Source of the DNA: Brachyspira pilosicoli
GTDB taxonomy: Bacteria > Spirochaetota > Brachyspiria > Brachyspirales > Brachyspiraceae
DNA length: 28,660 nucleotides
Direction of reading: 5' to 3'
Assembly: GCF_019402445.1 (NCBI RefSeq)
Contig: NZ_SRZM01000219.1
Coordinates: 1-28,660 of the forward strand
Part shown: piece by piece, positions 6,634 through 27,914 of the stretch
How positions within the stretch are numbered: the first letter of the stretch is position 1
Layout of the letters: every line of letters begins with the position of its first letter
Position numbers and translations under genes: made by a program
The notes under the pieces: model-generated
What the model was told of the DNA's origin: nothing
Database searches by the model: none
Seen by the model: the letters and a program-made list of their open reading frames with translations, nothing else

Positions 6634-6651
6634 TAATATAATATATTTAAA

Positions 6652-8062: not shown

Positions 8063-8087
8063 CGAATTTGTATAAAAAATTCAAAAA

Positions 8088-8131: not shown

Positions 8132-8194
8132 ATAAACGTATCAATTAATGAAGTTATAGATTTTAAGTATATAGTAGCTTTTTATAGGATATTT

Positions 8195-10034: not shown

Positions 10035-10071
10035 TAATTTTTTATATATATAATTTTAGGGAGAAATAAAA

Positions 10072-11403: not shown

Positions 11404-11450
11404 TAAAAATATTAATTAAATAAAAAATAAAAATAAAAGGATAGAAAAAT

Positions 11451-12644
11451 ATGGGTATACAAAAATATATTTCAAAACTCGATAGCCTTGAATTTGGAAA
11501 AATGTATAAAAATGACTTTTTCCTTACTTGGGACAAAACTTTTGATGAATTACAAGCTGTTTGGACTGTTGCTGATGCTTTAAGATTTTTAAGAGAAAGC
11601 AACATATCTACTAAAGTTTTTGATTCTGGTTTAGGTATTTCTTTATTTAGAGATAACTCTACTAGAACTCGTTTCTCTTTTGCTTCTGCTTGTAATCTTT
11701 TAGGTTTAGAAGTACAAGACTTAGACGAAGGTAAAAGCCAAATCGCTCATGGTGAAACTGTTAGAGAAACTGCTAACATGGTATCTTTCATGGCTGATGT
11801 TATAGGTATCAGAGATGATATGTATATTGGTAAAGGTCATGAATATATGAAAGAAGTTTCTGAGTCTGTAAGACAAGGTTACAATGACGGTATATTAGAG
11901 CAAATTCCTACTCTAGTAAACTTACAATGTGACAGAGACCATCCAACTCAAATGATGGCTGACTCTTTACACTTCATCCACGAATTAGGCGGATTAGAAA
12001 ACTTAAGAGGTAAAAAAGTTGCTATGACTTGGGCTTATTCACCTTCTTACGGTAAACCTCTTTCTGTACCTCAAGGTGCTGCTGGTTTATTCACAAGATT
12101 AGGTATGGATGTTGCTTTAGCTTATCCAAAAGGTTATGAGCTTATGCCTGAAGTTGAAGCTATTGCTAAGAAAAATGCTGAAGCTGCTGGCGTAAAATTA
12201 ACTATCACTAATGATATGGACGAAGCTTTTGAAAATGCTGATGTTGTTTATCCTAAATCTTGGGCTCCATTTGCTGCTATGCAAGAGAGAACAGACCTTT
12301 ATGGTAAAGGCGACACTAACGGAATAAAAGAACTTGAACAAAGATTATTAGCTCAAAACGCTAAACATAAAGATTGGTGCTGTACTGAAGAAAAAATGAA
12401 GAAAACTAAAGACGGAAAAGCATTATACTTACACTGCTTACCTGCTGACATTAATGATGTTAGCTGTAAAGAAGGTGAGGTTGCTGCTTCTGTATTTGAC
12501 AGATATAGAGTACCTCTTTACAAACAAGCTAGCTACAAACCATATGTTATAGCTGCTATGATTTTCTTAGCTAAGTTTAGAGATCCTCAAGCTGTATTAA
12601 GCAAATTAGCTTCTGATGGAAAACCAAGAGTATTTGGTTGCTAA
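11451..12644 (+). CDS. ygeW: YgeW, knotted carbamoyltransferase
   Basis: This 397-residue member of the aspartate/ornithine carbamoyltransferase superfamily is of the YgeW type. The carbamoyl-phosphate site is STRTR (70-74), with HPTQ at 164-167 and HCLP at 328-331. Unlike ornithine carbamoyltransferases it lacks the usual ornithine-loop pattern and carries the longer C-terminal region typical of YgeW. In this context it most likely works in the catabolic direction, phosphorolysing a carbamoylated (ureido) diamino acid to give carbamoyl phosphate for the carbamate kinase encoded next; that is inference from context. It follows ygeY by 47 bases with AAGGAT upstream of the ATG, and is followed by a terminator-like hairpin. 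Confidence 0.93.
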   Translation: MGIQKYISKLDSLEFGKMYKNDFFLTWDKTFDELQAVWTVADALRFLRESNISTKVFDSGLGISLFRDNSTRTRFSFASACNLLGLEVQDLDEGKSQIAHGETVRETANMVSFMADVIGIRDDMYIGKGHEYMKEVSESVRQGYNDGILEQIPTLVNLQCDRDHPTQMMADSLHFIHELGGLENLRGKKVAMTWAYSPSYGKPLSVPQGAAGLFTRLGMDVALAYPKGYELMPEVEAIAKKNAEAAGVKLTITNDMDEAFENADVVYPKSWAPFAAMQERTDLYGKGDTNGIKELEQRLLAQNAKHKDWCCTEEKMKKTKDGKALYLHCLPADINDVSCKEGEVAASVFDRYRVPLYKQASYKPYVIAAMIFLAKFRDPQAVLSKLASDGKPRVFGC

Positions 12645-12658
12645 TAATTAAACAATAT

Positions 12659-12702
12659 AATGGTAAGTGTCTATTAATTATAGTGCTTACCATTTTATAT
12701 CT
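12659..12702 (+). terminator. Hairpin terminator or attenuator between ygeW and arcC
   Basis: AATGGTAAG (12659-12667) pairs perfectly with CTTACCATT (12686-12694), and three further G-U pairs can extend the stem. The following TTTATATCTTT is only moderately U-rich. The hairpin splits the rightward gene series into two parts with partial read-through likely. Confidence 0.6.
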
Positions 12703-12773
12703 TTAATATTGTGAAAAAAAGAACTTTTTTGATGATATTAAAATTAAATTAATTTTGTTTTTAGGATATAAAA

Positions 12774-13715
12774 ATGGAAAATAAAAAAAGAATAGTTATT
12801 GCTTTAGGCGGTAATGCTTTGGGAGATACTCTTGCAGAGCAAATGGAAGCTGTAAAAATAACTGCTAAAAACATAGTAGATTTAGTAGAAAATGGCTGTG
12901 AAGTAATAGTAGCACATGGTAATGGTCCTCAAGTTGGATTTATCAATAATGCTATGAATGAATACACTAATAATCACAACACTGGAAACCCTATACCTTT
13001 ATCAGTATGTGTTGCTATGAGTCAGGCTTATATTGGTTATGATTTACAGAATGCTATTATGGAAGAGTTTTCTAATAGAAATATTGCAGTTCCGCCAATA
13101 GCTACATTAATTACACAAGTAGTAGTTGATGAGAATGACCCTGCTTTCAAAAACCCTACTAAGCCTATAGGTCAATTTATGACTAAAGAAGAGGGTGAGG
13201 CCAAGGCTAAAGAATTGGGTTGGACAGTAAAAGAAGATGCAGGAAGAGGATACAGAAGAGTTGTTGCTTCTCCTAAGCCTGTTGCAATTGCAGAAAGCAC
13301 TGCTATTAAAGCTATGCTTAATGAAAAGGCTTTAGTAATTTGCTGCGGAGGTGGTGGTATACCTGTTGTAAAAAGAGGCAATCATTTAAAAGGTATGGCT
13401 GCTGTTATAGATAAAGACTTTGCTTCTGCTGTACTTGCTAAAGAACTTGATGCTGATATGCTTATCATTTTAACAGCTGTAGAAAAAGTTGCTATTAACT
13501 TTGGTAAACCTGATGTTAAATGGCTTGATTCTATGACTATAGAAGAGGCTAAAAAACATTGCGATGAAGGTCAATTTGCTCCTGGTTCTATGCTTCCAAA
13601 AGTGCAGGCTTGTATGCAATTTGTTGAGGCTACTGGAAAAGAAGCTATGATTACTTTGCTTGAAAAAGCTAAAGATGCTATTAATGGCAAAACTGGTACT
13701 AGAGTAGTGAAATAA
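12774..13715 (+). CDS. arcC: Carbamate kinase
   Basis: This 313-residue amino-acid-kinase-family enzyme makes ATP and carbamate (which breaks down to ammonia and CO2) from carbamoyl phosphate and ADP. It has the N-terminal LGGNAL motif (11-16), GNGPQVG, and the C-terminal region with GSMLPKV that is typical of carbamate kinases. Length is normal. It is the energy-conserving step for the carbamoyl phosphate released by YgeW rather than part of an arginine deiminase operon, since no arcA or arcB is present. The gene follows a 129-base gap containing a hairpin, with AGGATA upstream of its ATG. In E. coli the corresponding paralogue in the ygeW-ygeX-ygeY region is named yqeA. Confidence 0.94.
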   Translation: MENKKRIVIALGGNALGDTLAEQMEAVKITAKNIVDLVENGCEVIVAHGNGPQVGFINNAMNEYTNNHNTGNPIPLSVCVAMSQAYIGYDLQNAIMEEFSNRNIAVPPIATLITQVVVDENDPAFKNPTKPIGQFMTKEEGEAKAKELGWTVKEDAGRGYRRVVASPKPVAIAESTAIKAMLNEKALVICCGGGGIPVVKRGNHLKGMAAVIDKDFASAVLAKELDADMLIILTAVEKVAINFGKPDVKWLDSMTIEEAKKHCDEGQFAPGSMLPKVQACMQFVEATGKEAMITLLEKAKDAINGKTGTRVVK

Positions 13716-13764
13716 AAAATTATATTTACTATAATAAATATAGAAATAAAAAGGAGGGTCATAA

Positions 13765-15111
13765 ATGGAGGGAAATAAATCTAATTCACAGTTAGTTTAT
13801 CAACTTGAAGGTCGTCCGAACATAGCTGTTGCACTTCCTTTAGGCATGCAGCATGTAATGGCAATGTTTACTTCAAACTTGGCTCCTATATTAATTATTG
13901 CGGGGGTATGTGGTTTATCGGGGGCTGATACTGTTGTTATGGTACAGTGTGCAATGTTTGTATCAGGGCTTACAACTTTTATTCAGCTTTATCCTATAAG
14001 ACTTGGAAAAAACAGACAAATCGGTGCTAATCTTCCTATAGTAATGGGTACATCTTTTGCTTTTGTACCTACTGCTCAAAGTGTTGCTGCTATGGGCGGT
14101 ATAGGAATGGTATTAGGCGGTGCTATGATTGGAAGTTTAACAGAAGTTATTATGGGATTCTTCTATAAATATATACGTAAATTCTTTCCGCCTTTGGTTG
14201 TTGGATGTACACTTGTAACTATAGGAGTAAGTTTACTTAATGTTGGGGTTGGTTATTTTGCCGGCGGGGTTGGATCTCCTGATTATGGTTCTCCTAAAAA
14301 TTTAGCTATGGGTTTTTTATCTTTATTTGTTATCATTATACTTCAGAAGTTTGGTAAAGGTATTATTAAAAATTCTGCTATTTTAATAGGTCTTATTGTT
14401 GGATATATAGTTTCTGCTTTTTTAGGTATGGTTAATACTCAGCCTATATCTGAGGCATCTTGGTTTAGAGTTCCTCTTCCTATGCATTTCAAAATAGAAT
14501 TTTCTTTGCCTGCTATAATAAGCTTCGCTGTTCTTTATATAACTTCAGGACTTGAAACTATAGGTAATACTTCTGGTATTACAATAGCTGGTTTTGACAG
14601 GGAAGCTACAGAAAAAGAAACTTCTGGTGCTATATTGGCAGATGCTTTAGGTTCTACAACTGCTGCATTTTTCAATTGTCTACCAAACACTGCTTTTGGA
14701 CAAAATGCGGGTATAGTATCTATGACTAAAGTTGTTAATAAATTCTGTATAGCAACAGGTGCTTTTGTTTTAATGTTATGCGGATTTTTCCCTAAATTGG
14801 GTGCTGTATTTTCTGCTATACCTAGCTCTGTATTGGGCGGATCTATAATAACAGTATTTGCTATGATTTTAATTAATGGAATCAAAATGATAGCTAAAGC
14901 TGGTTTTAGCGAACGTAATATTGTGGTAATGGGTATTACTTTTGCTTTGGGTCTTGGAATAGCTAATCATCAGGATGCTATAGCAAGTCTTCCTAGTTAT
15001 GTGAAATTCATATTCCATGACACTGTTTCTGCAACTTGTATTATATCTATTGTAGCAAATCTTATATTCCCTGCTGATAAAGAAAGTAAGCCAGAGGATT
15101 ATAATGCATAA
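13765..15111 (+). CDS. NCS2 family uracil/xanthine/urate permease (first copy)
   Basis: This 448-residue polytopic membrane protein of the nucleobase:cation symporter-2 family imports a purine by proton symport. The family marks are GMQHVMAMF (QH at 29-30), the TM8 carboxylate E264 in ETIGNTSG, and the signature QNAGIVSMTKV at 313-323. The second TM8 acidic position, Asp in characterised xanthine permeases (E-x3-D), is N268 here. About 12-14 hydrophobic segments can be seen. A strong AGGAGG lies at 13752-13757. Its position between carbamate kinase and the xanthine dehydrogenase genes points to xanthine or urate as the substrate; which one is uncertain. Confidence 0.9.
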   Translation: MEGNKSNSQLVYQLEGRPNIAVALPLGMQHVMAMFTSNLAPILIIAGVCGLSGADTVVMVQCAMFVSGLTTFIQLYPIRLGKNRQIGANLPIVMGTSFAFVPTAQSVAAMGGIGMVLGGAMIGSLTEVIMGFFYKYIRKFFPPLVVGCTLVTIGVSLLNVGVGYFAGGVGSPDYGSPKNLAMGFLSLFVIIILQKFGKGIIKNSAILIGLIVGYIVSAFLGMVNTQPISEASWFRVPLPMHFKIEFSLPAIISFAVLYITSGLETIGNTSGITIAGFDREATEKETSGAILADALGSTTAAFFNCLPNTAFGQNAGIVSMTKVVNKFCIATGAFVLMLCGFFPKLGAVFSAIPSSVLGGSIITVFAMILINGIKMIAKAGFSERNIVVMGITFALGLGIANHQDAIASLPSYVKFIFHDTVSATCIISIVANLIFPADKESKPEDYNA

Positions 15112-15145
15112 TTGTGTGTAAGTTTTTAATTAGTAAGGATATACA

Positions 15146-17281
15146 ATGGAAACTTTTATTAAAGAATTAAAAAATTCTGTTCCGAGAGTGGATGCTTTAG
15201 ATAAAATAACAGGAAAAACTAAATATTTGAGCGATATAGACTTTGGAAAAGATGTTCTATATGCAAAAATAGTTTATTCTACTAAAGCTAGGGCTAAGAT
15301 ATTAAAAATCAATATACCAGAACTTCCTGAAGGTTATTTTACTGTTGATTATAAAGATGTTCCGGGTAAAAATATGACTACTATGGTTGTAGCTGATTGG
15401 CCTCCATTTGCAGAAGATACTGTAAGATATATTGGAGAGACAATACTACTAGTAGTTGGACCTGATAAAAATATAGTTTATGATATTGCTGAAAAGATAA
15501 CTATAGAATATGAGGATTTGCCTGCGGTATTAAATATAGAAGATTCTAAAAAATTATTAGGCGGAGCTATAGTTAATAATGACAATATATTTGTATCATT
15601 CAAAGCGGGATATGGTGATGTAGATGAAGCTTTCAAAAAAGCAAAAACTATAATAGAAGAAACTTATCATACACCATATCAAGAACATTTATATATGGAA
15701 GTTAATGGTGCTGTAGGTGTATGGGAAAATAATAAGGTATCAATTTATTCATCTACACAATGTCCATATTATGTACGCAAAGCAACAGCTCCTGTACTTG
15801 GGGTTGAAGATGACAATTTAAGAATAGTTGCTCCTCCTATAGGCGGCGGTTTTGGGGGTAAAGAGCATTATCCGGATGTATTATCTGCGGTTGTGGCAGT
15901 TGCTACACATAAAGCTAAAAAAACTGTAAAACTTATATTAGACAGACAATTTGATATGGCTTATAGTGTAAAAAGACAGCCTGCTCAAATAACTACTAAA
16001 GTTGCACTTGATGAAAACAATAATATTATTGCACTTGATGTAGTATCAGATATGGACGCTGGTGCTTATGAGGCTAGTTCAAGAGTTATAATGCAAAGAT
16101 GTACATACACTGCTGCTAATGTATATAATTTCCCTAATGTGAGAGTATTAGGAAGATTGTATGTTACTAACAATGTACCTAGCTGTGCATTTAGAGGATT
16201 TGGTGCTCCTCAAGCAATATTTGCTATAGAAAGAACTATGGATAATATTGCTAAAAAAATAAATGTTGATCCTATAGAATTAAAAAGAAAATATTTCGTA
16301 AAACAAAATGACCCAACTATAACAGGCGGAGTATTCCATGATAATATAATACTTCCTAAAATGCTTGATTGGGCTTTAAAAGAATCTGATTACGAAAGAA
16401 AAGCAAAAGAATATAAAAACACTATGTATAAAGGAATAGGAATATCTTGTTTCTTGCATGGCTGTGCTTTTACTGGAAGCGGTGAAAGAGATATAATTAA
16501 GGCTAAATTAAAATTAAGAAAAAAGGGCAAAAAACTAATTATACTCACTTCAAATACAGAGATAGGTCAGGGGCTTCATACAACATTTAGAAAAATAGCT
16601 TCATACAATTTAAATATTCCATTAGAAGATGTAGAAATAGCTGAATATGATACAGATATTGTTCCAAATACTGGTCCTACTGTAGCTTCACGTTCTGCTA
16701 TGATAGTAGGGTATTTAGTACAAGAGGCTTCTAAAAAATTAAAAGAAAGATGGAATGAGGCTGATGAAATAGAAATAGTAGAAGATTACAAACACCCTAC
16801 TCATTTAATAGATTGGGATACTACTACTTTAAGAGGTGATGCTTATCCTAGTTATGGCCTTGGAATAAATGTTGTTGAAGTAGAAGTAGATAAATATACA
16901 TTAGAAGTAAAAATTGTAGGTGTATGGGCTGTATTTGATTGCGGATATCCTATAGATGAAAAGATAGTAGAAGGTCAGATAAAAGGCGGAGTTGCTCAGG
17001 CACTTGGCTGGGGAGCTTTAGAAAAATTGGTAAATAAAGACGGAAAATTCCTTCAAGTGAAGATGTCTGATTATATGATTCCTACTTCTTTAGATTTGCC
17101 TGAAATAAAAACTTGTATAATGGGTGAGCCATATCAATATGGACCATTGGGTGCTAAGGGAATAGGGGAAATAACTTTTGACGGTGCTGCTAGTGCTTAT
17201 GCTTCTGCTATGGAGAATGCTTTGAAACATCATTTTACAAGTATACCTATATTACCAGAAAATATTGCGGAGGTGTTATGA
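15146..17281 (+). CDS. xdhA: Xanthine dehydrogenase, molybdenum-binding subunit
   Basis: This 711-residue catalytic subunit of a three-part xanthine dehydrogenase binds the molybdopterin cofactor and hydroxylates hypoxanthine or xanthine. It carries Q179 in QEH (apical Mo ligand contact), GGGFGGKE with E240, FRGFG with R350 and GIGE with the catalytic base E675. All four positions correspond to the bovine active site (Q767, E802, R880, E1261), so it should act on purines. It is somewhat shorter than E. coli XdhA. The TGA stop overlaps the ATG of the iron-sulfur subunit gene. The start has AAGGAT five bases upstream. Insertion of the cofactor probably needs the XdhC-type chaperone encoded at 21259-22125. 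Confidence 0.93.
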   Translation: METFIKELKNSVPRVDALDKITGKTKYLSDIDFGKDVLYAKIVYSTKARAKILKINIPELPEGYFTVDYKDVPGKNMTTMVVADWPPFAEDTVRYIGETILLVVGPDKNIVYDIAEKITIEYEDLPAVLNIEDSKKLLGGAIVNNDNIFVSFKAGYGDVDEAFKKAKTIIEETYHTPYQEHLYMEVNGAVGVWENNKVSIYSSTQCPYYVRKATAPVLGVEDDNLRIVAPPIGGGFGGKEHYPDVLSAVVAVATHKAKKTVKLILDRQFDMAYSVKRQPAQITTKVALDENNNIIALDVVSDMDAGAYEASSRVIMQRCTYTAANVYNFPNVRVLGRLYVTNNVPSCAFRGFGAPQAIFAIERTMDNIAKKINVDPIELKRKYFVKQNDPTITGGVFHDNIILPKMLDWALKESDYERKAKEYKNTMYKGIGISCFLHGCAFTGSGERDIIKAKLKLRKKGKKLIILTSNTEIGQGLHTTFRKIASYNLNIPLEDVEIAEYDTDIVPNTGPTVASRSAMIVGYLVQEASKKLKERWNEADEIEIVEDYKHPTHLIDWDTTTLRGDAYPSYGLGINVVEVEVDKYTLEVKIVGVWAVFDCGYPIDEKIVEGQIKGGVAQALGWGALEKLVNKDGKFLQVKMSDYMIPTSLDLPEIKTCIMGEPYQYGPLGAKGIGEITFDGAASAYASAMENALKHHFTSIPILPENIAEVL

Positions 17282-17766
17282 TGGCCATAAGTTTTACTGT
17301 TAATAATAAAAAAATTAATACAGAATTAAATCCGCTTACTAGATTAATAGATTTTTTGAGAGATGAATTAAAACTTACAGGCACTAAAGAAGGTTGCGGA
17401 GAGGGTGAATGCGGAGCTTGTGCTGTTTTGATGAACGGTAAGGTTGTTAATTCTTGTTTAATTCCTATAGCTTTATGCGAGGGAAAAGAAATTTTAACTA
17501 TAGAAGGTTATACAGAAACAGAGAAAGGAAAAATAGTAACAAAAGCTTTTATTGATGAAGGTGCTGTGCAATGCGGTTTTTGTACTCCAGGTATGGTGAT
17601 GTCAACAGAGGCTATTTTGAATGATACAAAAGGAAATCCTACTGAAGAAGAAGTTAGAAGAGGACTTTCTGGAAACTTATGCAGATGTACTGGTTATGAC
17701 CATATAGTTAATGCTGTATTAAGAGCTTCTGAAATGGCTTCAAAGGAGGGTAAAAAATTATGGTAA
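17281..17766 (+). CDS. xdhC: Xanthine dehydrogenase, [2Fe-2S] subunit
   Basis: This small electron-transfer subunit has two [2Fe-2S] clusters: C39, C44, C47 and C59 (plant-ferredoxin type), and C98, C101, C134 and C136 (alpha-helical type), counted from the start used here. An ATG three bases earlier (17278) is also possible, but the GGAGG at 17269-17273 is only 4 bases from it and 7 from 17281, so 17281 (161 residues) is preferred. It links the Mo centre of the preceding subunit to the FAD subunit that follows. Genes of the three subunits overlap (order Mo, FeS, FAD), which fits a stoichiometric complex. Note that xdhC is the E. coli name for this FeS subunit; it is unrelated to the XdhC chaperone further right. 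Confidence 0.92.
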   Translation: MAISFTVNNKKINTELNPLTRLIDFLRDELKLTGTKEGCGEGECGACAVLMNGKVVNSCLIPIALCEGKEILTIEGYTETEKGKIVTKAFIDEGAVQCGFCTPGMVMSTEAILNDTKGNPTEEEVRRGLSGNLCRCTGYDHIVNAVLRASEMASKEGKKLW

Positions 17767-18611
17767 ATACTTTGACAGCTAAAAATATTAATGAGGCTTT
17801 GGAATTAAAATTAAAGCATAATGCAATAATTTTTGCAGGCGGTACAGATTTAATGGTAGAGCATCTTAGAGGAAGCAATTTAATAGCTAAATTTGAAAGA
17901 CCTGTGTTATTCATAAATGAAGTAAATGAATTAAAAGGTATAAAAGAAGATGAAAATAATATCATAATAGGAGCATTAACTACATTTGATGAAATAATTA
18001 AATCTCCTCTAATTCCTCAAGTATTAAAGGAGAGTGCTTTAGGTATAGCAGGACCTCCTATTAGAAATATTGCTACTATTGGAGGAAATATTTGCAATGC
18101 TTCGCCTTCTGCTGATAGTTTGCCTTCGCTTTATGCAATGGATTCGGTGCTAATATTAAAAAGTAAAGACTCACAAAGAGAAGTAAAAATAAAAGATTTC
18201 ATCACTGGTGTAAGTAAAACTACAATAAAAGATGATGAAATACTTACTCATATAATGATACCTAAGAAAAATTATGAATATTCTTTCTATAGAAAAATAG
18301 GTACAAGAAAGGCTAATGCTTTATCTAAACTTGCTATTTGTGCTTTAGTTTGTAAAGAAAATGATAAGTATAGATTTAAGATAAGTTTCTGTACTTTAGG
18401 AATTACAGTTACAAGAGATGAAACTATAGAAGAGAAGTTTGCTGTTTCAGATATCAGTGAATGGAAAAATAAAATAAAAGATATACAGGAAGCGTATTCT
18501 TCTATTATGAAACCAAGGGATAGTGCAAGATCAACTGCTTTATATAGAAAAAAATGTGCTTTAAATTTAATAGAATATTTTTTGGAGGAAGCACTAAAAA
18601 ATATCTGTTAA
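17760..18611 (+). CDS. xdhB: Xanthine dehydrogenase, FAD-binding subunit
   Basis: This 283-residue FAD subunit is of the CoxM/XdhB type. The two FAD-pyrophosphate motifs are AGGTD (26-30) and TIGGN (105-109) with GPPIRNIA in front. It receives electrons from the iron-sulfur subunit and would hand them to NAD+ or another acceptor. It overlaps the FeS subunit gene by 7 bases, with GGAGG upstream inside that gene. This is the only recognisable FAD subunit of a molybdenum hydroxylase in the window, so it could in principle also serve the selenium-dependent enzyme on the other strand, though nothing in the sequence shows that. Confidence 0.92.
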   Translation: MVNTLTAKNINEALELKLKHNAIIFAGGTDLMVEHLRGSNLIAKFERPVLFINEVNELKGIKEDENNIIIGALTTFDEIIKSPLIPQVLKESALGIAGPPIRNIATIGGNICNASPSADSLPSLYAMDSVLILKSKDSQREVKIKDFITGVSKTTIKDDEILTHIMIPKKNYEYSFYRKIGTRKANALSKLAICALVCKENDKYRFKISFCTLGITVTRDETIEEKFAVSDISEWKNKIKDIQEAYSSIMKPRDSARSTALYRKKCALNLIEYFLEEALKNIC

Positions 18612-18650
18612 TTTAAAAGATAAAAACAATTTAACAAATGGAGAAGAAAT

Positions 18651-20030
18651 ATGAGTATGAATGAAAAAACTCAAAGCGCCTTGTTTGAATATGAAGGCGT
18701 TCCAAAAATGACTCAAGCTTTCCCGCTAGCTATTCAACACGTAGTTGCTATGATTGTTGGTTGTGTAACTCCTGCTCTTATAGTATCATCTGCAGCTGGT
18801 CTTAAAAGCGGAAGTCCAGAGCAAATATTATTAGTTCAATCTTCATTAGTATTTGCTGCTATTTCTACGATAATTATGGTTTTTCCTATACCTATAACTA
18901 AAAACTATCATATAGGTGCTAGACTTCCTATGATTATTGGAGTTAGTTTTGCTTATGTATCTACTATGCAGTCTATTGCTAGAGGTCCTGAAGGCACTGG
19001 TCTTGGTGTTAGAGGTCTTGCAATCATTTTTGGTGCTCAAGTAGTAGGCGGTATTGTAGCTATAATATTTGGTTTAGCTGTTGAAAAAATTAGAAAACTA
19101 TTTCCTCCTTTAATTGCTGGTACAGTAGTATTTACAGTTGGTCTTTCATTATATCCTACAGCTGTTAGATATATGGCTGGCGGAAGTACTTTATATAGCA
19201 TAAATGGTGAAGTTGTTCCTTTTGGTTCTTGGCAGTATTGGACTGTTGCTTTCATTACTCTTATTGCTGTTATTTTCTTCAATCAATTTACTAAAGGATT
19301 TTTAAAATTAGCTTCTATACTTATGGGATTAATTATTGGTTATATAGCAGCATTTTTCTTTGGTATGATTAATTTTACAAGTGTTGTTAATGCTGGTATT
19401 TTCCAAGCTCCTAAACTTATACCTTTTGGAATAGAGTTTGACCCTTCTGCTGCTATTGCTATAGCACTTTTATTTGCTGTTAACTCTGTTCAAGCTATTG
19501 GAGATTTTTCTGCTACTACTTCAGGCGGTATGGGAAGAATGCCTACTGATAAAGAATTAAAATGCGGTATCACTGCTTATGGTATTACTAATATATTATC
19601 TTCTGTATTTGGTTGTTTGCCAACTGCTACTTATAGCCAAAACGTTGGTATAGTTGCTACTACTAAGGTTGTTAATAGAATAGTATTTTTAATTGCTGCT
19701 ATTATAATATTAGTTGCTGGTTTATTCCCTAAATTCTCAGCTTTACTTACTACTATACCTTCTTGTGTATTAGGTGGTGCTACTATAATGGTATTTGCTT
19801 CTATTGCTATGACTGGTATTAAATTGGTATTTACTGAAAATATGGGTCCTAGAAATACTTTAATAGTAGGTCTTGCTGTTGCTTTAGGTATGGGTACTGT
19901 TCAAGTTGGAGGAGCTTTAGATACTTTCCCTGCTTGGGCTAAAACTGTATTTGGAAGCAGCCCTGTTGTTATAGCTACTTGTGTTGCTATTATATTAAAT
20001 GTTATTCTTCCTAAAGAAGAAAAAAAATAA
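18651..20030 (+). CDS. NCS2 family uracil/xanthine/urate permease (second copy)
   Basis: This 459-residue integral membrane nucleobase permease is related to but clearly different from the copy at 13765-15111. It has the QH motif at 29-30, the signature QNVGIVATTKV at 330-340, and many hydrophobic segments. In TM8 the essential Glu of the family is replaced by Q281 while the following Asp is kept (D285, in QAIGDFSA), the reverse of the first permease. That suggests a different substrate or coupling, for example urate versus xanthine. It lies 39 bases after the FAD subunit gene, with GGAG before the ATG, and ends at a strong terminator. A Met at residue 3 is an alternative start. Confidence 0.9.
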   Translation: MSMNEKTQSALFEYEGVPKMTQAFPLAIQHVVAMIVGCVTPALIVSSAAGLKSGSPEQILLVQSSLVFAAISTIIMVFPIPITKNYHIGARLPMIIGVSFAYVSTMQSIARGPEGTGLGVRGLAIIFGAQVVGGIVAIIFGLAVEKIRKLFPPLIAGTVVFTVGLSLYPTAVRYMAGGSTLYSINGEVVPFGSWQYWTVAFITLIAVIFFNQFTKGFLKLASILMGLIIGYIAAFFFGMINFTSVVNAGIFQAPKLIPFGIEFDPSAAIAIALLFAVNSVQAIGDFSATTSGGMGRMPTDKELKCGITAYGITNILSSVFGCLPTATYSQNVGIVATTKVVNRIVFLIAAIIILVAGLFPKFSALLTTIPSCVLGGATIMVFASIAMTGIKLVFTENMGPRNTLIVGLAVALGMGTVQVGGALDTFPAWAKTVFGSSPVVIATCVAIILNVILPKEEKK

Positions 20031-20042: not shown

Positions 20043-20080
20043 AGACAATGGGATTTTAAAGCCCATTGTCTTTTATTTTA
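20043..20080 (+). terminator. Strong intrinsic terminator after the second permease
   Basis: A perfect 10-bp stem (20043-20052 with 20062-20071, GC-rich core GGG/CCC) with a 9-base loop is followed by TTTTATTTT. It closes the long rightward transcript. It also overlaps the 3' end of the convergent gene, but that strand lacks a U-run after the stem, so it mainly serves the plus strand. Confidence 0.85.
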
Positions 20081-21257
20081 AATCTTCTCTTTTATCTATA
20101 TCTATTAACTTCATTTCATCTATTGTATATAAAAAAGTGTCATTAATATTTTTCTTTATAATTTTTGATGCTCCTTCATCATTTTCTAGTTTTAAAATGT
20201 CATCAATATATTTAGAAGAAAAAATTGCAGGGTTAGAAACTCTGTTTTCTGTAAACATAGCTCCTATATTTTTTTGGCTGAAGTAGAAATATTTTATCAT
20301 ATTAAATATATCATCGCTTCCTAAAAAAGGCATATCGCACACAAAAAAAGCAAAACTGTCAGAGCCATCTTTTATTGCTTCTTTTAATCCAAGTTTTATT
20401 GATGAGCTTATTCCAGCATTATGATTGGTATTATAGATAACGGAATAATATTTATTTTCAAACTCTTTATTTATTATTTCATCATATATGCTTACAACAA
20501 TTATAGAAGTTTCTAAGTTTTTTAACTTTTTATCTTTTTTTAATAATTTTACTACATCAGATATTTTATCAATTGTGTTTTCAAACAATGTTTTATTATT
20601 AAGAGAATTAAATTTATGAAGTAATTTGTTGCCATTAAAACGTTTGCTATTTCCAGAAGCAAGAATTATAAATGCAGTTTTTTTATAATTAATATTTTTG
20701 TTTTGTGTAAAATCATTTAAGTATAATTGAATATTACTGCATTTATTTTTTAATTTGTTTATGTAGTATTTGTTTGCAATAAATTTGATAGTTTCAATAT
20801 CTACAATTTTATTTTTATCTATTTCCTTGCATAAATTGTATCTAAAACAAACTTCGCTAAATTTTCTATTTAAAGCATGAAGTCCCATTATTATAACTAT
20901 TTTAGAAATTTTGCCTAATAATATATTAGGTATAACAGGCTCATTTTCATTAGGTATTTTTATAGGGTAATGTTTTGCTCCATCAGCTTCTATTAATATA
21001 ATATCAGCGTATTTAATAGCATTATTTAATTCATCATCTCCAACATACATTAGCTTTTTTTCATCATACTCTTTACCAAGCACTATTATATTTTTATTGT
21101 CAAATGAGTGAGAATTAATATTGTCAGTATATTTATTAGATTTATAAATTTTTGTTGTGGTTGTTATAATAACTTTTTTGTCTTTATAACTTTTTGATAA
21201 GTTTTCTATATATGTAGTCTTTCCACCAGCACCGCATACTAATATTATTTCAGGCAT
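20073..21257 (-). CDS. YqeC-MocA fusion, selenium/molybdenum cofactor maturation protein
   Basis: This 394-residue protein joins two proteins normally encoded separately. Residues 1-190 match YqeC, a putative selenium-dependent hydroxylase accessory protein, with a P-loop-like GAGGKTT (9-15), TTTTKI (32-37) and EADGAK (90-95). Residues 195-394 match MocA/YgfJ, the molybdenum cofactor cytidylyltransferase, with the nucleotidyltransferase motif ILASGNSKRF (198-207) followed by NKLL, and CDMP (307-310) as the metal-binding aspartate site. In this motif the family's usual LAAGxSxRMG is slightly altered (LASG, RFNG). A single protein would couple the two maturation steps. The ATG lies one base after the stop of the XdhC-chaperone gene, so they share a transcript. 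A frameshift or assembly join is unlikely because the linker is continuous. Confidence 0.87.
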   Translation of the reverse strand: MPEIILVCGAGGKTTYIENLSKSYKDKKVIITTTTKIYKSNKYTDNINSHSFDNKNIIVLGKEYDEKKLMYVGDDELNNAIKYADIILIEADGAKHYPIKIPNENEPVIPNILLGKISKIVIIMGLHALNRKFSEVCFRYNLCKEIDKNKIVDIETIKFIANKYYINKLKNKCSNIQLYLNDFTQNKNINYKKTAFIILASGNSKRFNGNKLLHKFNSLNNKTLFENTIDKISDVVKLLKKDKKLKNLETSIIVVSIYDEIINKEFENKYYSVIYNTNHNAGISSSIKLGLKEAIKDGSDSFAFFVCDMPFLGSDDIFNMIKYFYFSQKNIGAMFTENRVSNPAIFSSKYIDDILKLENDEGASKIIKKNINDTFLYTIDEMKLIDIDKREDLK

Positions 21258-21258: not shown

Positions 21259-22125
21259 TTATTTTTTTATTTTCCTTCTATTTTCAAATATTGCTCTTTT
21301 TAATATTAGCTCTGCTGCTATACTTACGGCTATCTCTTCTGTAGATTCTGCCCCTATTGGCATGCCTATTGGAGCATGAACTCTTTTTATCATTTCATCT
21401 GTATATTTTTCTTCTTCTTTTAATCTATTATGTAGTGTAGCTATTTTTTTGCTGCTTCCTATCATTCCAATATAATAAGCATTTGTTTTTAGAGCATTTT
21501 TTTCTACTATATAATCATAACTATGTCCTCTAGTTACTATAATTATATAATCTTTTTCTGTGATATTTATTTTATTAAATACATTCTCATAATCATCCAC
21601 TATAATTTTGTATGCATTATAAAATCTCTCTTTGTTTGCAAACTCTTCTCTGTCATCAATTACAATACAATTAAATGATAACTTATTAAGTATATCAACT
21701 AAGTCTAATGAAACATGCCCAGCCCCAAATATATATACATTACTGTTTTTTTTATTTTCTTCTTCTATTAATCTTTCTATAATTTCTTTGTTATTTTTGT
21801 TTATATATTTAAAATCAATTTCTACATTTCCTCCGCAAAGCATACCAACTCCGCCAGATTCTTCATTAGTGAGAGAATAATTTTTTTTGTCATTTGATTT
21901 TTTTTGAAGTAGGGTGAAAGCATCATTTAAAACTTTAAACTCTAATATTCCTCCTCCTATTGTAGAGAGAGTCTTTTTATTATTGTTTTCATCAAAATAT
22001 GCAATCATCATAGCATCAGAAGTTCTAGGTGATGAACCGCTAGATTTTATTATATTTATTAGTATTATTTCTCTATTTAGTTCTAATAATTTAATAGCTT
22101 CATTTAAAGTATTTTTTAGTGTCAT
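21259..22125 (-). CDS. XdhC/CoxI family molybdenum cofactor chaperone
   Basis: This 288-residue protein is of the XdhC/CoxI family, which binds molybdenum cofactor, promotes its sulfuration and inserts it into xanthine dehydrogenase-type enzymes. Visible are GSSPR (30-34), TIGGG (55-59), the conserved cysteine segment MLCGGNVEI with C97, and a C-terminal Rossmann domain beginning with YIFGAGHVS (131-139). It is transcribed with the YqeC-MocA fusion and lies between the purine operon and the flavodiiron operon. It could serve both the xdhA-type enzyme and the selenium-dependent one. The gene's Shine-Dalgarno is weak (AGAG region), and its promoter is not clear. Confidence 0.9.
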   Translation of the reverse strand: MTLKNTLNEAIKLLELNREIILINIIKSSGSSPRTSDAMMIAYFDENNNKKTLSTIGGGILEFKVLNDAFTLLQKKSNDKKNYSLTNEESGGVGMLCGGNVEIDFKYINKNNKEIIERLIEEENKKNSNVYIFGAGHVSLDLVDILNKLSFNCIVIDDREEFANKERFYNAYKIIVDDYENVFNKINITEKDYIIIVTRGHSYDYIVEKNALKTNAYYIGMIGSSKKIATLHNRLKEEEKYTDEMIKRVHAPIGMPIGAESTEEIAVSIAAELILKRAIFENRRKIKK

Positions 22126-22171: not shown

Positions 22172-22209
22172 CAATAAAAAAGTCGACCGCAATAATTACG
22201 GCCGACTTT
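22172..22209 (-). terminator. Strong intrinsic terminator of the flavodiiron operon
   Basis: In minus-strand RNA 22199-22209 pairs with 22179-22189 over 11 positions including one G-U, with a 9-base loop, followed by a run of U (22174-22181). On the plus strand the same position is an A-C mismatch, so the hairpin is built for the minus strand. It ends the CoA-transferase/acyl-CoA dehydrogenase/flavodiiron transcript 25 bases after the last stop. Confidence 0.88.
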
Positions 22210-22233: not shown

Positions 22234-23445
22234 TTATTTCATAGATTCAACTATAGCATCAACTAAAGAATCAATCTCACCAATGTTAGCATCTTTCATA
22301 GAAGAAGAAACAGATACTTGAGGGTCGATGATTTCGCATTGTTTTAAGTTGTTTTCAATGAATTCTTGCATCAAAGCACCAGATTTAGGAGCCCAAGAAC
22401 CATTTTCTATGATAGCGAACTTACGTTTTTGAACATTAAGAGCTCTCATATCATCTAAATAATTATGCATAGGAGGATAAATATTCAAGTTGTAAGTAAC
22501 AGAAGCAAGAACAACATGACTATATTTGAAAGTTTCAGAAATCAAATAAGAAACATGAGTGCTTGAAACATCATACATAACAGTGTTACTAACACCTTTT
22601 TCAGCTAATTTAGAAGCAACAACACCAGCCATAGCTTCAGTATTACCATACATAGAAGCATAAACGATTAATACACCTTTAGTTTCAGGCTCATAAGTGC
22701 TCCATTTGTTGTATTTTTCAAGAATGTAACCTAAATCTTTTCTCCAAACAGGTCCGTGTAAAGGACAAAGCATTTTAATTTTGTCTATTATACCGCCAGC
22801 TTTTTTAAGTAGATGCTGTACATGAGGACCATATTTACCAACGATGTTAGTATAATATCTTCTAGCTTCATCAAGCCATTCTCTGTCGAAGTTAACTTCA
22901 TCAGAAAATTGTTTGCCATCTATAGCAATGAAAGAACCGAAAGCGTCAGCAGAGAATAAAACACCATTAGTGCTATCGAAACTAACCATAGCTTCAGGCC
23001 AGTGAACCATTTGAGCAGCAATGAAGTGAATTTCATGCTTACCAAATTTTCTAGAATCACCTTCTTTTACTTGAATTTTTTTGTCATCAGTAATAGTGAA
23101 ACCAAATTGATCCATAAACATAAATGCTTTTTCAGTAGCAATAACTTGAGTTTCAGGGTGACGAATCAATACTTCTTCAATAGAAGCAGCATGGTCAGGT
23201 TCCATGTGGTTGATAATCATGTAATCAAGTTTTTTACCGTTTAAAACATATTCTATATTATCTAAGAATTGTCTGCAAACTGCCCAATCAACAGTATCAA
23301 AAAGAACAGTTTTTTCATCTAATAAAAGATAAGAGTTATAAGAAACCCCTCTAGTTAAAGGGTGAACATTTTCAAATAGAGCCAAACGATGTTCATTAGC
23401 TCCAACCCAATATAAATCTTCAGTAACTTTTCTAACGCAATGCAT
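22234..23445 (-). CDS. FprA-family A-type flavodiiron protein
   Basis: This 403-residue cytoplasmic flavodiiron protein reduces O2 to water (and, in some members, NO to N2O). Its N-terminal metallo-beta-lactamase domain has the diiron ligands H80, E82, D84, H85, H148, D167 and H230. The C-terminal flavodoxin domain (about 255-403) starts with the FMN-binding loop YASMYGNTE (262-270). It has no built-in rubredoxin, and a rubredoxin normally donates its electrons; the gene just upstream encodes an acyl-CoA dehydrogenase with a rubredoxin domain at its C-terminus, a likely partner. The ATG is preceded by a strong AAGGAGG. It is the last gene of a three-gene transcript ending at the terminator 22172-22209. 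Confidence 0.94.
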   Translation of the reverse strand: MHCVRKVTEDLYWVGANEHRLALFENVHPLTRGVSYNSYLLLDEKTVLFDTVDWAVCRQFLDNIEYVLNGKKLDYMIINHMEPDHAASIEEVLIRHPETQVIATEKAFMFMDQFGFTITDDKKIQVKEGDSRKFGKHEIHFIAAQMVHWPEAMVSFDSTNGVLFSADAFGSFIAIDGKQFSDEVNFDREWLDEARRYYTNIVGKYGPHVQHLLKKAGGIIDKIKMLCPLHGPVWRKDLGYILEKYNKWSTYEPETKGVLIVYASMYGNTEAMAGVVASKLAEKGVSNTVMYDVSSTHVSYLISETFKYSHVVLASVTYNLNIYPPMHNYLDDMRALNVQKRKFAIIENGSWAPKSGALMQEFIENNLKQCEIIDPQVSVSSSMKDANIGEIDSLVDAIVESMK

Positions 23446-23473
23446 TAAATTTCCTCCTTTGTTAGTTTATCAA

Positions 23474-23494
23474 AATTAAGCATTTTACTTAATT
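23474..23494 (-). other. Small intergenic hairpin between acyl-CoA dehydrogenase and flavodiiron genes
   Basis: AATTAAG and CTTAATT (23474-23480, 23488-23494) form a perfect 7-bp A/T-rich stem with a 7-base loop. It sits in the 54-base gap and is followed on the minus strand by only a short U stretch. It is probably too weak to terminate but might adjust expression of the downstream gene. Confidence 0.3.
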
Positions 23495-23499
23495 ATTAT

Positions 23500-25425
23500 T
23501 TATGCCTTAATGAAGTTAGCTTTTTCTTCACTACATTCAGGACATACCCACTCTTCTGGAAGAGCAGTAAAGTCTGTACCTGGAGCTATTTCAGCTTCTG
23601 GGTCTCCAACGAATGGATTATACTCATAACCACAACCAGAACAAACATATATTTTTGGCATTTCCATAACTTTCTTAGGTACGATTCTTTTAATTTTCTT
23701 GTAAGGTACTTCAGCAGGTTTTTTAGCAGCATCGCCACCTAAAGCAGCAGTAAGTAAAGGAAGTATCTCAGTAACATCACCAACAATACCATAGTCAGCA
23801 TTTTTGAATATTTTAGCAGAAGCTTTCATATTGATAGCAACTATGATAGAAGCGTTTTTAATACCTTTCAAGTGTTGGTTAGCACCAGAAATACCGCAAG
23901 CAATATACAAGTTACCATTGAATTTTTGACCAGACATACCAACATATCTATTGATAGGTAAGTATCTCAATTCTTCAGCAACAGGACGAGAACAACCAAT
24001 AGCAGCACCAGCAGCTTTAGCTAAGTTCTCAACAAGTTTCATATTTTCTTTACCGCCAATACCTTTACCAGCAGAAACAACTCTTTCAGCATCAACTATA
24101 GGAGTATTAATGTCAATACCAACAGAGAAGTCGATTCCATCTTTCTGTAAAGCAGCCACAAGAGCATTAACTTTGTCTTGAGCAGAACCTTCTTTGAAGA
24201 TGATGTTTCTTCTTTCACCAGTGATAGGACCTTTTTTAGCCATAGGACCAGCAACAGCAGCTGCAGGAGATTTAGGCATTTTACCAAGTATAGCAGCAGA
24301 AATAACAACTCTTTGAATTTCGTTAGTACCTTCATAGATTGTACAAATCTTAGCATCGCGGTAAGCTCTCTCAACCATGTAAGCACCTTTAATATAACCG
24401 TTACCACCATGGATTTGAAGAGCATCATTAACAACTTCCAAACCTATATCAGAAGCATACTGTTTAGCCATAGCAGCTTCCATACCATAAGGTTCATGTT
24501 TTTCTTTAAGATAAGCAGCACTGTAAACAAGTAATCTTGCAGCACGTAATTTAGTAGCCATATCAGAAAGTTTGAAAGCAATAGCTTGTTGTTGAGCTAT
24601 AGGGCGACCAAACTGTATTCTGTCTTTAGCATATTCTAAAGCAGCCTCATAAGCTCCTTGAGCTATACCTAAAGCTTGAGCAGCAATACCTATACGACCG
24701 CCGTCAAGAGTTTGCATAGCAATTTTGAAACCTTGTCCTTCTTTACCAAGTAAGTTTTCTTTAGGAACTTTAACATCAGAGAAAAGTAATTGAGCAGTAG
24801 AAGATGAACGTATACCAAGTTTGTTATAATGTTCACCAAACTCAAAACCTTCCCAACCTTTTTCTACTATGAAAGCACTAATACCTTTAGTACCAATACC
24901 AGGAGTAGTAACAGCGAATACTACATAAGTATCAGCTTTAGGAGCATTAGTGATGAATATTTTTTCACCGTTTAATATGTAGTGGTCACCATTTAATACA
25001 GCAGTAGTTTCTGTACCGCCTGCATCAGAACCAGCTTCAGGCTCAGTTAAACCGAAAGCACCTATTTTTTCTCCTTTAGCTAGAGGAGTTAAATATTTTT
25101 TCTTTTGCTCTTCAGTACCGAAAGCAGCGATAGGGTAAGAACCTAAAGAAGTGTGAGCTGATAAAATTACACCAACACCACCATCAACTCTTGAAAGCTC
25201 TTCTACAGCTATAGCATAACTAATAACATCTAGTCCAGCACCGCCGTATTCTTTACCATATGGTATACCCATAATATCTAATTTCTTTTTACCCATTTCT
25301 TTTACAGCTTCATCTGGGAATTTATTATCAAGGTCAAGCTCTACAGCTATAGGTTTTACTACTTCTTCAGCCCAAGCTCTGACCTTAGCACGAAACTCTT
25401 CGTGTTGTTCAGTTGTTTTAAACAT
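23500..25425 (-). CDS. Acyl-CoA dehydrogenase fused to ETF-alpha FAD domain and rubredoxin
   Basis: This 641-residue three-domain protein begins with a complete acyl-CoA dehydrogenase (1-380). It has GAFGLTEPEAGSD (122-134), RIQFGRPI (269-276) and the catalytic Glu E365 in YEGTNEIQR, as in butyryl/short-chain enzymes. Residues 440-560 resemble the C-terminal FAD-binding domain of electron-transfer flavoprotein alpha (SAGKGIGG at 451-458, GCSRPVAEE near 477, GISGANQHL near 511). Residues 590-641 are a rubredoxin with C595, C598, C628 and C631. Standard acyl-CoA dehydrogenases are about 380 residues and need separate EtfAB; no etfB is in the window. The fusion offers a path from acyl-CoA flavin to ETF-type flavin to iron, then perhaps to the adjacent flavodiiron protein. 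The chain length of the substrate is inferred as short from the CoA-transferase next door. AAGGAGA precedes the ATG. Confidence 0.92.
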   Translation of the reverse strand: MFKTTEQHEEFRAKVRAWAEEVVKPIAVELDLDNKFPDEAVKEMGKKKLDIMGIPYGKEYGGAGLDVISYAIAVEELSRVDGGVGVILSAHTSLGSYPIAAFGTEEQKKKYLTPLAKGEKIGAFGLTEPEAGSDAGGTETTAVLNGDHYILNGEKIFITNAPKADTYVVFAVTTPGIGTKGISAFIVEKGWEGFEFGEHYNKLGIRSSSTAQLLFSDVKVPKENLLGKEGQGFKIAMQTLDGGRIGIAAQALGIAQGAYEAALEYAKDRIQFGRPIAQQQAIAFKLSDMATKLRAARLLVYSAAYLKEKHEPYGMEAAMAKQYASDIGLEVVNDALQIHGGNGYIKGAYMVERAYRDAKICTIYEGTNEIQRVVISAAILGKMPKSPAAAVAGPMAKKGPITGERRNIIFKEGSAQDKVNALVAALQKDGIDFSVGIDINTPIVDAERVVSAGKGIGGKENMKLVENLAKAAGAAIGCSRPVAEELRYLPINRYVGMSGQKFNGNLYIACGISGANQHLKGIKNASIIVAINMKASAKIFKNADYGIVGDVTEILPLLTAALGGDAAKKPAEVPYKKIKRIVPKKVMEMPKIYVCSGCGYEYNPFVGDPEAEIAPGTDFTALPEEWVCPECSEEKANFIKA

Positions 25426-25477
25426 TTGCTTCTCCTTTTTTAATTAATTTGTTTTATTATGAATTAAACTAACTTTT

Positions 25478-26827
25478 TTATTTATTGCTATTTCTCCAGA
25501 TATTGCATTCTTGAGCTTTTTTGATTAACTCTTCTCTAAAATCTGGATGAGCTATAGATATTAAAGCTTCAGCTCTTTGCCAAGTGCTTAAACCTTTTAA
25601 GTTTACTTTACCATACTCTGTTACAACATAATGAGTATTAGCTCTTGTATCTGTAATAATAGTACCATTAGCAAAACTTGGAACTATTCTTGATTGCAAT
25701 GAACCATCTTTACCTTTTACAGTTGATGATAAACAAATAAAGCTTTTACCGCCTTTTGAAAGATAAGCACCTAATACAAAGTCTAATTGTCCGCCAGCAC
25801 CGCTTATATGTTTAGTACCAGTAGATTCAGCACTTACTTGACCGAATAAATCTATTTCAACAGCATTGTTTATAGACATAAAATTATCTATAGAAGATAT
25901 TACTCTTACATCATTAGTATAATCTACAGGAGCAGACAAACATTGAGGGTTATTATGAAGGAAATCATATAACTTTTTAGTACCAGCACCAAAAGCATAA
26001 GTTTGTCTTCCTCTGTCTATATTCTTTTTATTTCCAGTGATTTTACCAGCTAATGATATATCAACAAAAGCATCAACATACATCTCTGTGTGTACGCCTA
26101 AATCTTTAAGGTCAGATTCTGCTATTAAAGAACCTACAGCATTAGGCATACCACCAATACCCAACTGTATACAAGCACCATTAGGTATTTCTTCTACTAT
26201 AAGTTTAGCTACAGTTTTATCTACCTCAGTAGCAGCACCGCCTCCTCCTAATTCTACTATAGAAGGATTATCTCCCTCTACTATCATATCAACTTGATTA
26301 ATATGTACAGATTCTCCGCCGATATGGTCAGCACCTAAACAGCGAGGCATATTTTCATTTACTTCAACTATAACACATTTTGACCTTTCTATAACAGCCT
26401 GCATATGTGACGCATTAGGACCAAAACTAAAATAACCATTCTCGTCCATAGGTCCAACTTGGAACATAGCCACATCTATACCGCGAGGTAAATCTCTATA
26501 ATATCTAGGCATTTCAGAATAACGAATAGGGTCATAAAAACAAAATCCTCTTGATATCGCTTTTCTTTCTATACCAGACATATGCCAAGAGTTCCAAGTA
26601 AAATGTTTTTCTGGATTAAGAATTTTAAATATTTGAGGCTCCCAACATAATATACCGCCTCTAATATTTATATCTGTTAGCTCGGGCATTCTTTCAGCTA
26701 ATGCTTTATCTAATTCTATTGGGGTAGCAGTTACCCAACCGTAATCTATCCAGTCACCAGATTTTATTACCTTAACGGCTTCATATGGCGAGGTTAATTT
26801 TTGATTATAAAGTTTGATATAATCCAT
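25478..26827 (-). CDS. Acetyl-CoA hydrolase/transferase family CoA-transferase (butyryl- or 4-hydroxybutyrate-type)
   Basis: This 449-residue family I CoA-transferase moves CoA between acetyl-CoA and a short acid such as butyrate. The catalytic Glu is E248 in VHTEM, and the CoA-site glycine stretch is GIGGMPNAV (223-231), with GGQLDF further on. An upstream GTG at 26837-26839 would add four residues. However, that region carries GGGAGAT, a good Shine-Dalgarno spaced five bases before the ATG at 26825-26827, so the ATG is the better start. It is the first gene of the transcript that includes the acyl-CoA dehydrogenase fusion (52-base gap) and the flavodiiron protein. Butyrate versus 4-hydroxybutyrate or another acid cannot be decided from sequence. 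Confidence 0.9.
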
Positions 26828-26863: not shown

Positions 26864-26892
26864 AGTATAGTAAAATAAATTTTGATTGTCAA
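26864..26892 (-). promoter_or_regulatory. Near-consensus promoter of the CoA-transferase operon
   Basis: On the minus strand TTGACA (26887-26892) and TATACT (26864-26869) are 17 bases apart. A second inverted repeat (TATACT and AGTATA, 26856-26861 and 26864-26869, 2 bases apart) covers the -10 box. Transcription would start near 26857, about 30 bases before the ATG. Confidence 0.75.
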
Positions 26893-26902
26893 TCAAAATT
26901 TA
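26876..26902. promoter_or_regulatory. 27-bp perfect palindrome over the -35 box (operator candidate)
   Basis: Arms of 13 bases (26876-26888 and 26890-26902) are perfectly complementary around one central T; the core is TTGATTG-T-CAATCAA. It covers the TTGACA box, so a bound protein would block RNA polymerase. The odd spacing resembles the 7-1-7 form of Fur/PerR-family sites more than the even-spaced FNR type (TTGAT-N4-ATCAA), but the sequence matches neither consensus closely. The regulator is not identified. Confidence 0.7.
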
Positions 26903-27083: not shown

Positions 27084-27914
27084 ATGATAGTAAAAAAAGT
27101 CTATGCTGTATATTACAGTGCCACTGGTACTACTCAGAAAATAGCTTCTTTTATAGCAGAAAATGTCGCTAAAAAACTTAATGTTGAGTGTGAGAAATAT
27201 AATTATAGCTTGCCTAAAAGAAGAGAAAAAGTGCTTGAGTTTAAAGAAAATGATTTAGTGATATGCGGAAGTCCTACCTATGCAGGAAGAGTTCCAAATA
27301 TAATGCTTCCCTATTTAAAAAACAACATTAAAGGTAATGGTGCTTTAGCTATACCTGTAGTGCTTTTTGGTAATAGAAACTTTGATGATGCTCTAATTGA
27401 ACTTAGAAATATCTTAGAAGATAATGGTTTTCATACTATAGCTGGTGCTGGTTTTGTTGGTGAGCATTCTTTTTCTTATACTTTAGGGGCTAATAGACCT
27501 GATGAAAAAGATATGCAAATTGCTGCCGATTTTGTAGACAAAATAGTAGAGAAAATAAGAACTGTTGAAAATATACCTACTGAACCTATTAAAGTGAGAG
27601 GAAATGACCCTATTCGTCCTTATTATACACCAAGAGATAGACATGAACATGCTATTGATATATTAAAAGTAAAACCTAAAGTTAATTTGTCAAAATGTAC
27701 AGATTGTAAAATATGTGCTCATGTTTGCCCTATGGGGTCTATTGATTTTAATGATGTGAGCAAATATGTTGGTATATGTACAAAATGTGGTGCTTGCATC
27801 AAAAAATGCCCAGAAAAATGCAGATATTATGATGATGAGGGCTATTTATACCATCAACATGAGTTGGAAGAACAGTTTGAAAGAAGAGCTGAACCTGAAA
27901 TATTTTATATGTGA
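27084..27914 (+). CDS. EFR1-family flavodoxin-ferredoxin
   Basis: This 276-residue cytoplasmic electron-transfer protein joins a flavodoxin-like domain (1-165) and a C-terminal ferredoxin with two [4Fe-4S] clusters. The FMN phosphate loop is YYSATGTTQKI (10-20), with GSPTYAGRVP near 62-71. The clusters are ligated by C205, C208, C211 and C215, and by C232, C235, C238 and C242. This layout is typical of the EFR1 family in anaerobes, where the partner is usually unknown. It lies divergently beside the CoA-transferase operon and might share control with it. A GGGGGG stretch at 27072-27077 serves as Shine-Dalgarno, six bases from the ATG. Confidence 0.92.
   Translation: MIVKKVYAVYYSATGTTQKIASFIAENVAKKLNVECEKYNYSLPKRREKVLEFKENDLVICGSPTYAGRVPNIMLPYLKNNIKGNGALAIPVVLFGNRNFDDALIELRNILEDNGFHTIAGAGFVGEHSFSYTLGANRPDEKDMQIAADFVDKIVEKIRTVENIPTEPIKVRGNDPIRPYYTPRDRHEHAIDILKVKPKVNLSKCTDCKICAHVCPMGSIDFNDVSKYVGICTKCGACIKKCPEKCRYYDDEGYLYHQHELEEQFERRAEPEIFYM

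Follow-up and report, generated by a model that had tools for sequence, protein, structure and literature searches.

A butyryl-CoA:acetate CoA-transferase gene heads a predicted BOOR operon in Brachyspira

An apparent operon of three genes in Brachyspira pilosicoli most probably encodes BOOR, an enzyme pair that would pass electrons from butyryl-CoA to O2, together with a butyryl-CoA:acetate CoA-transferase (But) that would set the level of butyryl-CoA; we put the probability of this reading at about 0.88. In F. nucleatum, BOOR comprises BCR and a flavodiiron protein, FDP (FN1423-FN1424), and reduces O2 to water with butyryl-CoA as donor (excerpts of PMC12288474). BCR is a fusion of an acyl-CoA dehydrogenase, an ETF-alpha FAD domain and a rubredoxin. 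Assigning the Brachyspira pair to BOOR appears essentially right from its architecture, gene order and kept residues, FN1424 and FN1423 having been compared by description only.

Organization of the operon

The stretch of DNA analyzed here, referred to as the window, is 28,660 nucleotides long and corresponds to contig C134 of a 2.47 Mb genome (463 contigs, 98.5% complete). Its BCR shares 99% identity with a B. pilosicoli protein. The features of the operon were as follows.

26864..26892, minus strand: sigma-70-type promoter TTGACA-17-TATACT upstream of But (11/12 matches, best of 28 sites)
25478..26827, minus strand: But, butyryl-CoA:acetate CoA-transferase (TIGR03948; Pfam PF02550 and PF13336)
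25426..25477, minus strand: But-BCR gap of 52 bp with ribosome site AAGGAG
23500..25425, minus strand: BCR, fusion of acyl-CoA dehydrogenase, ETF-alpha FAD domain and rubredoxin, 641 aa (Pfam)
24289..25413, minus strand: acyl-CoA dehydrogenase part of BCR, residues 5-379 (Pfam Acyl-CoA_dh N/M/C)
23857..24099, minus strand: ETF-alpha FAD-binding domain of BCR, residues 443-523 (PF00766, 95 bits)
23512..23649, minus strand: rubredoxin domain of BCR, residues 593-638, CSGC...CPEC (PF00301, 65.5 bits)
23446..23499, minus strand: BCR-FDP gap of 54 bp with ribosome site AAGGAGG
22234..23445, minus strand: FDP, flavodiiron protein, 403 aa (ODP beta-lactamase and flavodoxin)
22179..22209, minus strand: intrinsic terminator just 3' of FDP, 14-bp stem and T tract

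The genes run in the order But, BCR, FDP, with open reading frames in all three and Pfam or NCBIfam matches, as in the original prediction of an adjacent CoA-transferase, fusion and flavodiiron protein without a rubredoxin; the gene order, spacing and terminator that it described were also borne out. AGGAG-type ribosome sites lie immediately 5' of the ATG of BCR and of FDP, and the But start (ATG 26827) is preceded by GGGAG, with an alternative GTG in frame at 26839. Promoter-like sites in the region numbered 28 compared with 21.6 in shuffles, and terminator-like sites 3 compared with 2.1; as these numbers are near the shuffle level, the counts alone are weak and the weight rests on the best promoter and terminator only. 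The TTGACA-17-TATACT promoter before But was common to 7/7 Brachyspira sequences compared (the window and six other loci). A single But-BCR-FDP transcript is well supported by these predicted signals.

A perfect 7-1-7 palindrome (window 26882-26896) covers the -35 element of this promoter, and its arms run further in the window. Allowing up to two mismatches, the pattern was found at 10 places per strand in its own genome (one exact, in the window, and nine with two mismatches), compared with 4 for a reversed-pattern control. It was rejected as the operator of a regulator, as the arms were not conserved in other Brachyspira loci.

An EFR1-family flavodoxin-ferredoxin gene (window 27084-27914) is divergent from the operon; across the 16 sequences compared, it neighbors But in the window and the pilosicoli group and in none of the rest. 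A protein encoded at window 20073-21257, next to XdhC (21259-22125), combines YqeC and MobA-like nucleotidyltransferase domains. Part of a purine-type gene set was seen at window 6652-20030, namely a xanthine permease, an SsnA-like hydrolase and a molybdenum subunit resembling that of xanthine dehydrogenase.

Domains and conserved residues of BCR and FDP

Pfam placed an ODP beta-lactamase domain at residues 34-231 of FDP and a flavodoxin domain from residue 260, and found no rubredoxin domain in FDP itself. No match to PF01012, the ETF N-terminal domain, was found by Pfam in BCR. As the EtfA N-terminal domain is absent, only the electron-transferring FAD domain is retained, and BCR should on its predicted domains be non-bifurcating. 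An AlphaFold2 model of BCR (mean pLDDT 86.4, pTM 0.68) confirmed the folds. It matched C. difficile Bcd (5ol2_C) with a TM-score of 0.97 by target length and 60% identity, and the 50 Foldseek matches listed, out of 968, were all acyl-CoA dehydrogenases.

Alignments were made from 87 loci, comprising the 80 relatives described below and seven spirochaete stretches (two near-duplicates), using full-length rows only. This gave 86 rows plus the window for BCR (L009 was left out as partial) and 83 rows plus the window for FDP (L005, L039, L065 and L074 were left out as partial or missing). E365 of BCR, which we take to be the catalytic glutamate, was invariant in 87/87 rows, and the motif residues of the ETF-alpha domain were mostly invariant. 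C595, C598, C628 and C631, presumably the rubredoxin cysteines, were kept in 86/87 rows, the exception being L039, where BCR ends at 580 residues. FDP residues H80, E82, D84, H85, H148, D167 and H230, which we assume to be the diiron ligands, were kept in 84/84 rows.

The BCR-FDP pair in other genomes

For the survey of relatives, 80 loci were retained of 471 confirmed; these are the closest relatives and so a biased sample, with no Fusobacterium record among them. FDP lay directly after BCR in 78/80 loci, and in the other two (L065 and L074) the contigs end 89 and 84 bp past BCR. A second sample comprised 391 genomes drawn evenly from the class of G297, the Clostridia, in which BCR was found in 32 at E <= 1e-200 and was followed by FDP in 31 (27 of the 28 fetched loci, plus G297, G313, G328 and G344 with loci L011, L030, L055 and L080). 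A genome survey for co-occurrence had been proposed with the original prediction, and on these counts it is false that the two genes are adjacent only here.

The one exception in the Clostridia, L145 6972-8690, encodes a 572-aa fusion of acyl-CoA dehydrogenase and ETF-alpha, with neither a rubredoxin match in the fusion nor a neighboring FDP. Absence of rubredoxin and FDP together is what a rubredoxin-to-FDP path predicts, although as a single case it proves little. In the protein P0034 (1084 aa, 37 member sequences), an FDP core is followed in one chain by three alternations of rubredoxin and ETF-alpha domains, with no dehydrogenase; going by its domains, it is a natural fusion of the predicted electron path. 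When the middle part of P0034 was used as a query, no other protein with both ODP and ETF_alpha domains was found among the 100 matches listed.

Our search of 296 genomes of the spirochaete phylum scored up to four candidates per genome, such that a weaker second copy could escape, and listed near-full-length BCR outside Brachyspira only in G275, G090 and G113. Other matches in non-Brachyspira spirochaetes covered the dehydrogenase part, up to about residue 434 at most. The BCR-FDP pair of G113 had no butyrate-pathway neighbors.

But in Brachyspira and linkage to the butyrate pathway

But scored 844.3 bits against TIGR03948 (NCBIfam; cut-off 674.8), covering positions 1-445 of the 445 in the model, and was the sole PF13336 gene found in its own genome. 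BCR was present in 25/26 Brachyspira genomes, But in 24/26 and both in 23. Among the latter, But was directly upstream of BCR in 22/22 decidable genomes, 21 by coordinates and G022 because But and the BCR start adjoin each other at one contig end; G021 was left out of this count owing to contig breaks. The But-BCR-FDP trio stays together between Brachyspira species while the flanking genes differ, and But, whose role the original prediction left aside, is what distinguishes the BOOR operon of this lineage. Genes with similarity to Thl, Crt and Hbd lie divergently upstream of But, past the end of the window, in the pilosicoli group (L002, L112, L113 and L114).

No But was found within the fetched flanks (up to 6 kb, some shorter) of 72 non-Brachyspira loci, nor beside BCR in any of the 28 sampled Clostridia loci, and it was rejected on these counts as a general partner of BOOR. 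A search for But in 50 of the 72 non-Brachyspira genomes gave matches in 41 at E <= 1e-60 and, in 16, at 59% identity or higher. But was on another contig in 14 of those 16 genomes and on the same chromosome, but more than 0.8 Mb off, in G326. In the sixteenth, G342 (L078), it lay on the same contig, approximately 8 kb beyond BCR. L078 is part of L149, an 11.6-kb contig of an Anaerocolumna MAG carrying, at 410-11643, BCR-FDP-Thl-Crt-Hbd-Bcd-EtfB-EtfA-But on one strand.

A second row, Thl-BCR-FDP-Hbd-Crt-But, also on one strand, was found in the spirochaete G275 (L106 1-7546, and L146). The thiolase, 3-hydroxyacyl-CoA dehydrogenase and enoyl-CoA hydratase domains were confirmed and But was also matched; the row is without bcd-etf, and a separate Bcd-EtfBA lies elsewhere in G275. 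In spirochaete G090, a thiolase-like gene precedes BCR-FDP and a separate Bcd-EtfBA is present in the genome, with no But in the fetched stretch. Apart from L078/L149, similarity to Thl, Crt and Hbd near BOOR was seen in only one of the 80 loci (L002); among the 28 Clostridia loci, L134 gave a weak Hbd-like match, L133 a Bcd-like one, and the others none. BOOR is thus linked to the butyrate pathway more than once, but not commonly.

These data also bear on whether But might be a mere positional neighbor, sharing the promoter but functionally uncoupled from BOOR, which we consider unlikely. Consistent with such an arrangement, most genomes outside Brachyspira have BOOR with no But next to it, and within the genus the two are separated in three genomes: G001 (L100) and G003 (L102) have BCR and no But match, with dnaG-like and sigma-70-like genes preceding BCR in G001, and G019 (L101) has But with BCR not found. 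However, the trio is intact across the genus despite its differing flanks, with the promoter hexamers unchanged, and BOOR is joined to But and to other butyrate-pathway genes in both G275 and L149. By family assignment, moreover, But and BCR share a metabolite.

Proposed mechanism and alternative readings

We infer that the Brachyspira proteins act as F. nucleatum BOOR does, with electrons passing in the order FAD-FAD-Fe-FMN-diiron, and that But acts on the same pool of butyryl-CoA. The FAD of the BCR dehydrogenase would oxidize butyryl-CoA to crotonyl-CoA, and the electrons would then move to the FAD of the ETF-alpha domain, the rubredoxin iron of BCR, the FMN of FDP and finally its diiron site, where FDP would reduce O2, near the mucosa, to water. 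But would exchange butyryl-CoA with butyrate and acetate and thereby set the butyryl-CoA pool, such that one transcript would control both exits from butyryl-CoA, to butyrate or to crotonyl-CoA with O2 as sink. The crotonyl-CoA would return to Bcd-EtfBA. The path from acyl-CoA via FAD, ETF-type FAD, rubredoxin and flavodiiron protein to O2, bypassing NADH and any separate ETF, had been anticipated correctly in outline by the original prediction and fits F. nucleatum BOOR in the available parts of PMC12288474; the novelty that it implied does not stand, this path being already published as BOOR.

One Bcd-EtfBA copy and one FDP were detected in the window's genome, RnfC is present, and the two PF01012 genes found are both on contig C105. 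Given Bcd-EtfBA and RnfC, an energy-conserving cycle of the type proposed for F. nucleatum BOOR (PMC12288474, in part) would be possible in Brachyspira, and L149 agrees with this in having BOOR and Bcd-EtfBA in a single row of genes. But may work in either direction, releasing butyrate with O2 as an overflow, or taking up butyrate that fuels O2 reduction.

A stronger form of the latter, which we regard as improbable, is that the module serves O2-dependent butyrate oxidation in these spirochaetes, an anaerobe burning butyrate at the oxygenated mucosa under low O2. But would then activate colonic butyrate with acetyl-CoA, BOOR would use O2 to drive the energetically difficult step from butyryl-CoA to crotonyl-CoA, and crotonase, 3-hydroxybutyryl-CoA dehydrogenase and thiolase would yield two acetyl-CoA, one re-priming But and one available for ATP. 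On their sequence assignments, the G275 row and the divergent thl-crt-hbd of the pilosicoli group contain the genes that this would need. The odds are lowered because the L149 row includes bcd-etfBA, which is a better fit to butyrate synthesis or cycling.

It is more doubtful still that BCR is mainly reductive, a crotonyl-CoA reductase for butyrate formation with electrons entering via rubredoxin, But releasing the butyrate and FDP as a side branch. In G275 (L106 and L146), BCR-FDP does sit inside thl-BCR-FDP-hbd-crt-but, a position in which one would look for a crotonyl-CoA reductase. Against this, a separate Bcd-EtfBA is present in the window's genome, in G275 and in G090, and in L149 it is in BOOR's own row, making BCR unlikely as the crotonyl-CoA reductase of the genome. 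The ETF part of BCR is also without the N-terminal and beta-subunit domains, such that no NADH site is seen. The potential of rubredoxin is normally near 0 mV, which would make it a poor reductant of crotonyl-CoA. PMC12288474 (in part) gives about -10 mV for crotonyl-CoA and describes the F. nucleatum enzyme as oxidizing butyryl-CoA with O2. Last, although the PDB entry closest to FDP in sequence is 1ycf, named nitric oxide reductase, the idea that BCR feeds FDP for reduction of NO and not O2 in nitrosative defense, an option left in the original prediction, is very improbable and was set aside, since F. nucleatum BCR-FDP is stated to have no NO reductase activity (PMC12288474, in part).

Reading the operon as BOOR plus But, with electrons passing from butyryl-CoA to O2, would extend BOOR to a genus of spirochaetes that almost always carries BCR (25/26 genomes). 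NADH oxidase has been credited with the defense of Brachyspira against oxygen (PMC2650404, seen in part), and a second O2 sink, one that spares NADH, would alter how survival of Brachyspira at the mucosa is read. The operon, which carries the only butyrate CoA-transferase detected in its genome, and the two other arrangements, in G275 and L149, would link butyrate turnover to O2.

Comparison with known systems

The primary BOOR paper is Bystrom & Wolthers 2024, as cited in reviews. In the parts available, PMC12288474 and PMC13404960 mention BOOR for Fusobacterium and Firmicutes, and PMC12630350 also gives its architecture and gene order. No description of BOOR in Brachyspira or of a But-BOOR operon was found in the literature searched, which was mostly without subscription papers and partly in excerpt. 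Nor was a published account of BOOR linkage to butyrate-pathway genes found there; the primary BOOR paper, which lay outside this search, may list Brachyspira.

F. nucleatum BOOR and the Brachyspira pair share the BCR order of Bcd, EtfA C-terminal domain and rubredoxin, an adjacent FDP and the same proposed reaction. The F. nucleatum system, an alpha4beta4 complex according to excerpts of PMC12288474, is bicistronic, whereas the Brachyspira operon has a third gene, But, which comes first. F. nucleatum releases butyrate via an acetoacetate CoA-transferase (PMC12288474, in part), whereas no gene for a PF01144 enzyme was found in the window's genome. Roseburia and other gut Clostridia have the same BCR-FDP pair; there BOOR adjoins an Rrf2 regulator, as in the Roseburia C0FN14 neighborhood (excerpts of PMC13404960), whereas in Brachyspira no Rrf2 match was seen among the neighboring window ORFs scanned and But comes first.

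Further likenesses are to Bcd-EtfAB (5ol2), whose dehydrogenase (5ol2_C) is 60% identical to that of BCR and whose ETF-alpha FAD domain is homologous, and to NAD(P)H-fed flavodiiron proteins, which have the same FDP core and a rubredoxin-type donor. Bifurcating Bcd-EtfAB possesses EtfB and the EtfA N-terminal domain, whereas BCR has neither and gains a rubredoxin. In Brachyspira, unlike in the NAD(P)H-fed proteins, electrons would come from an acyl-CoA dehydrogenase carried on one chain with the rubredoxin. With But in the lead, the operon extends the known BOOR system in a manner specific to this lineage.
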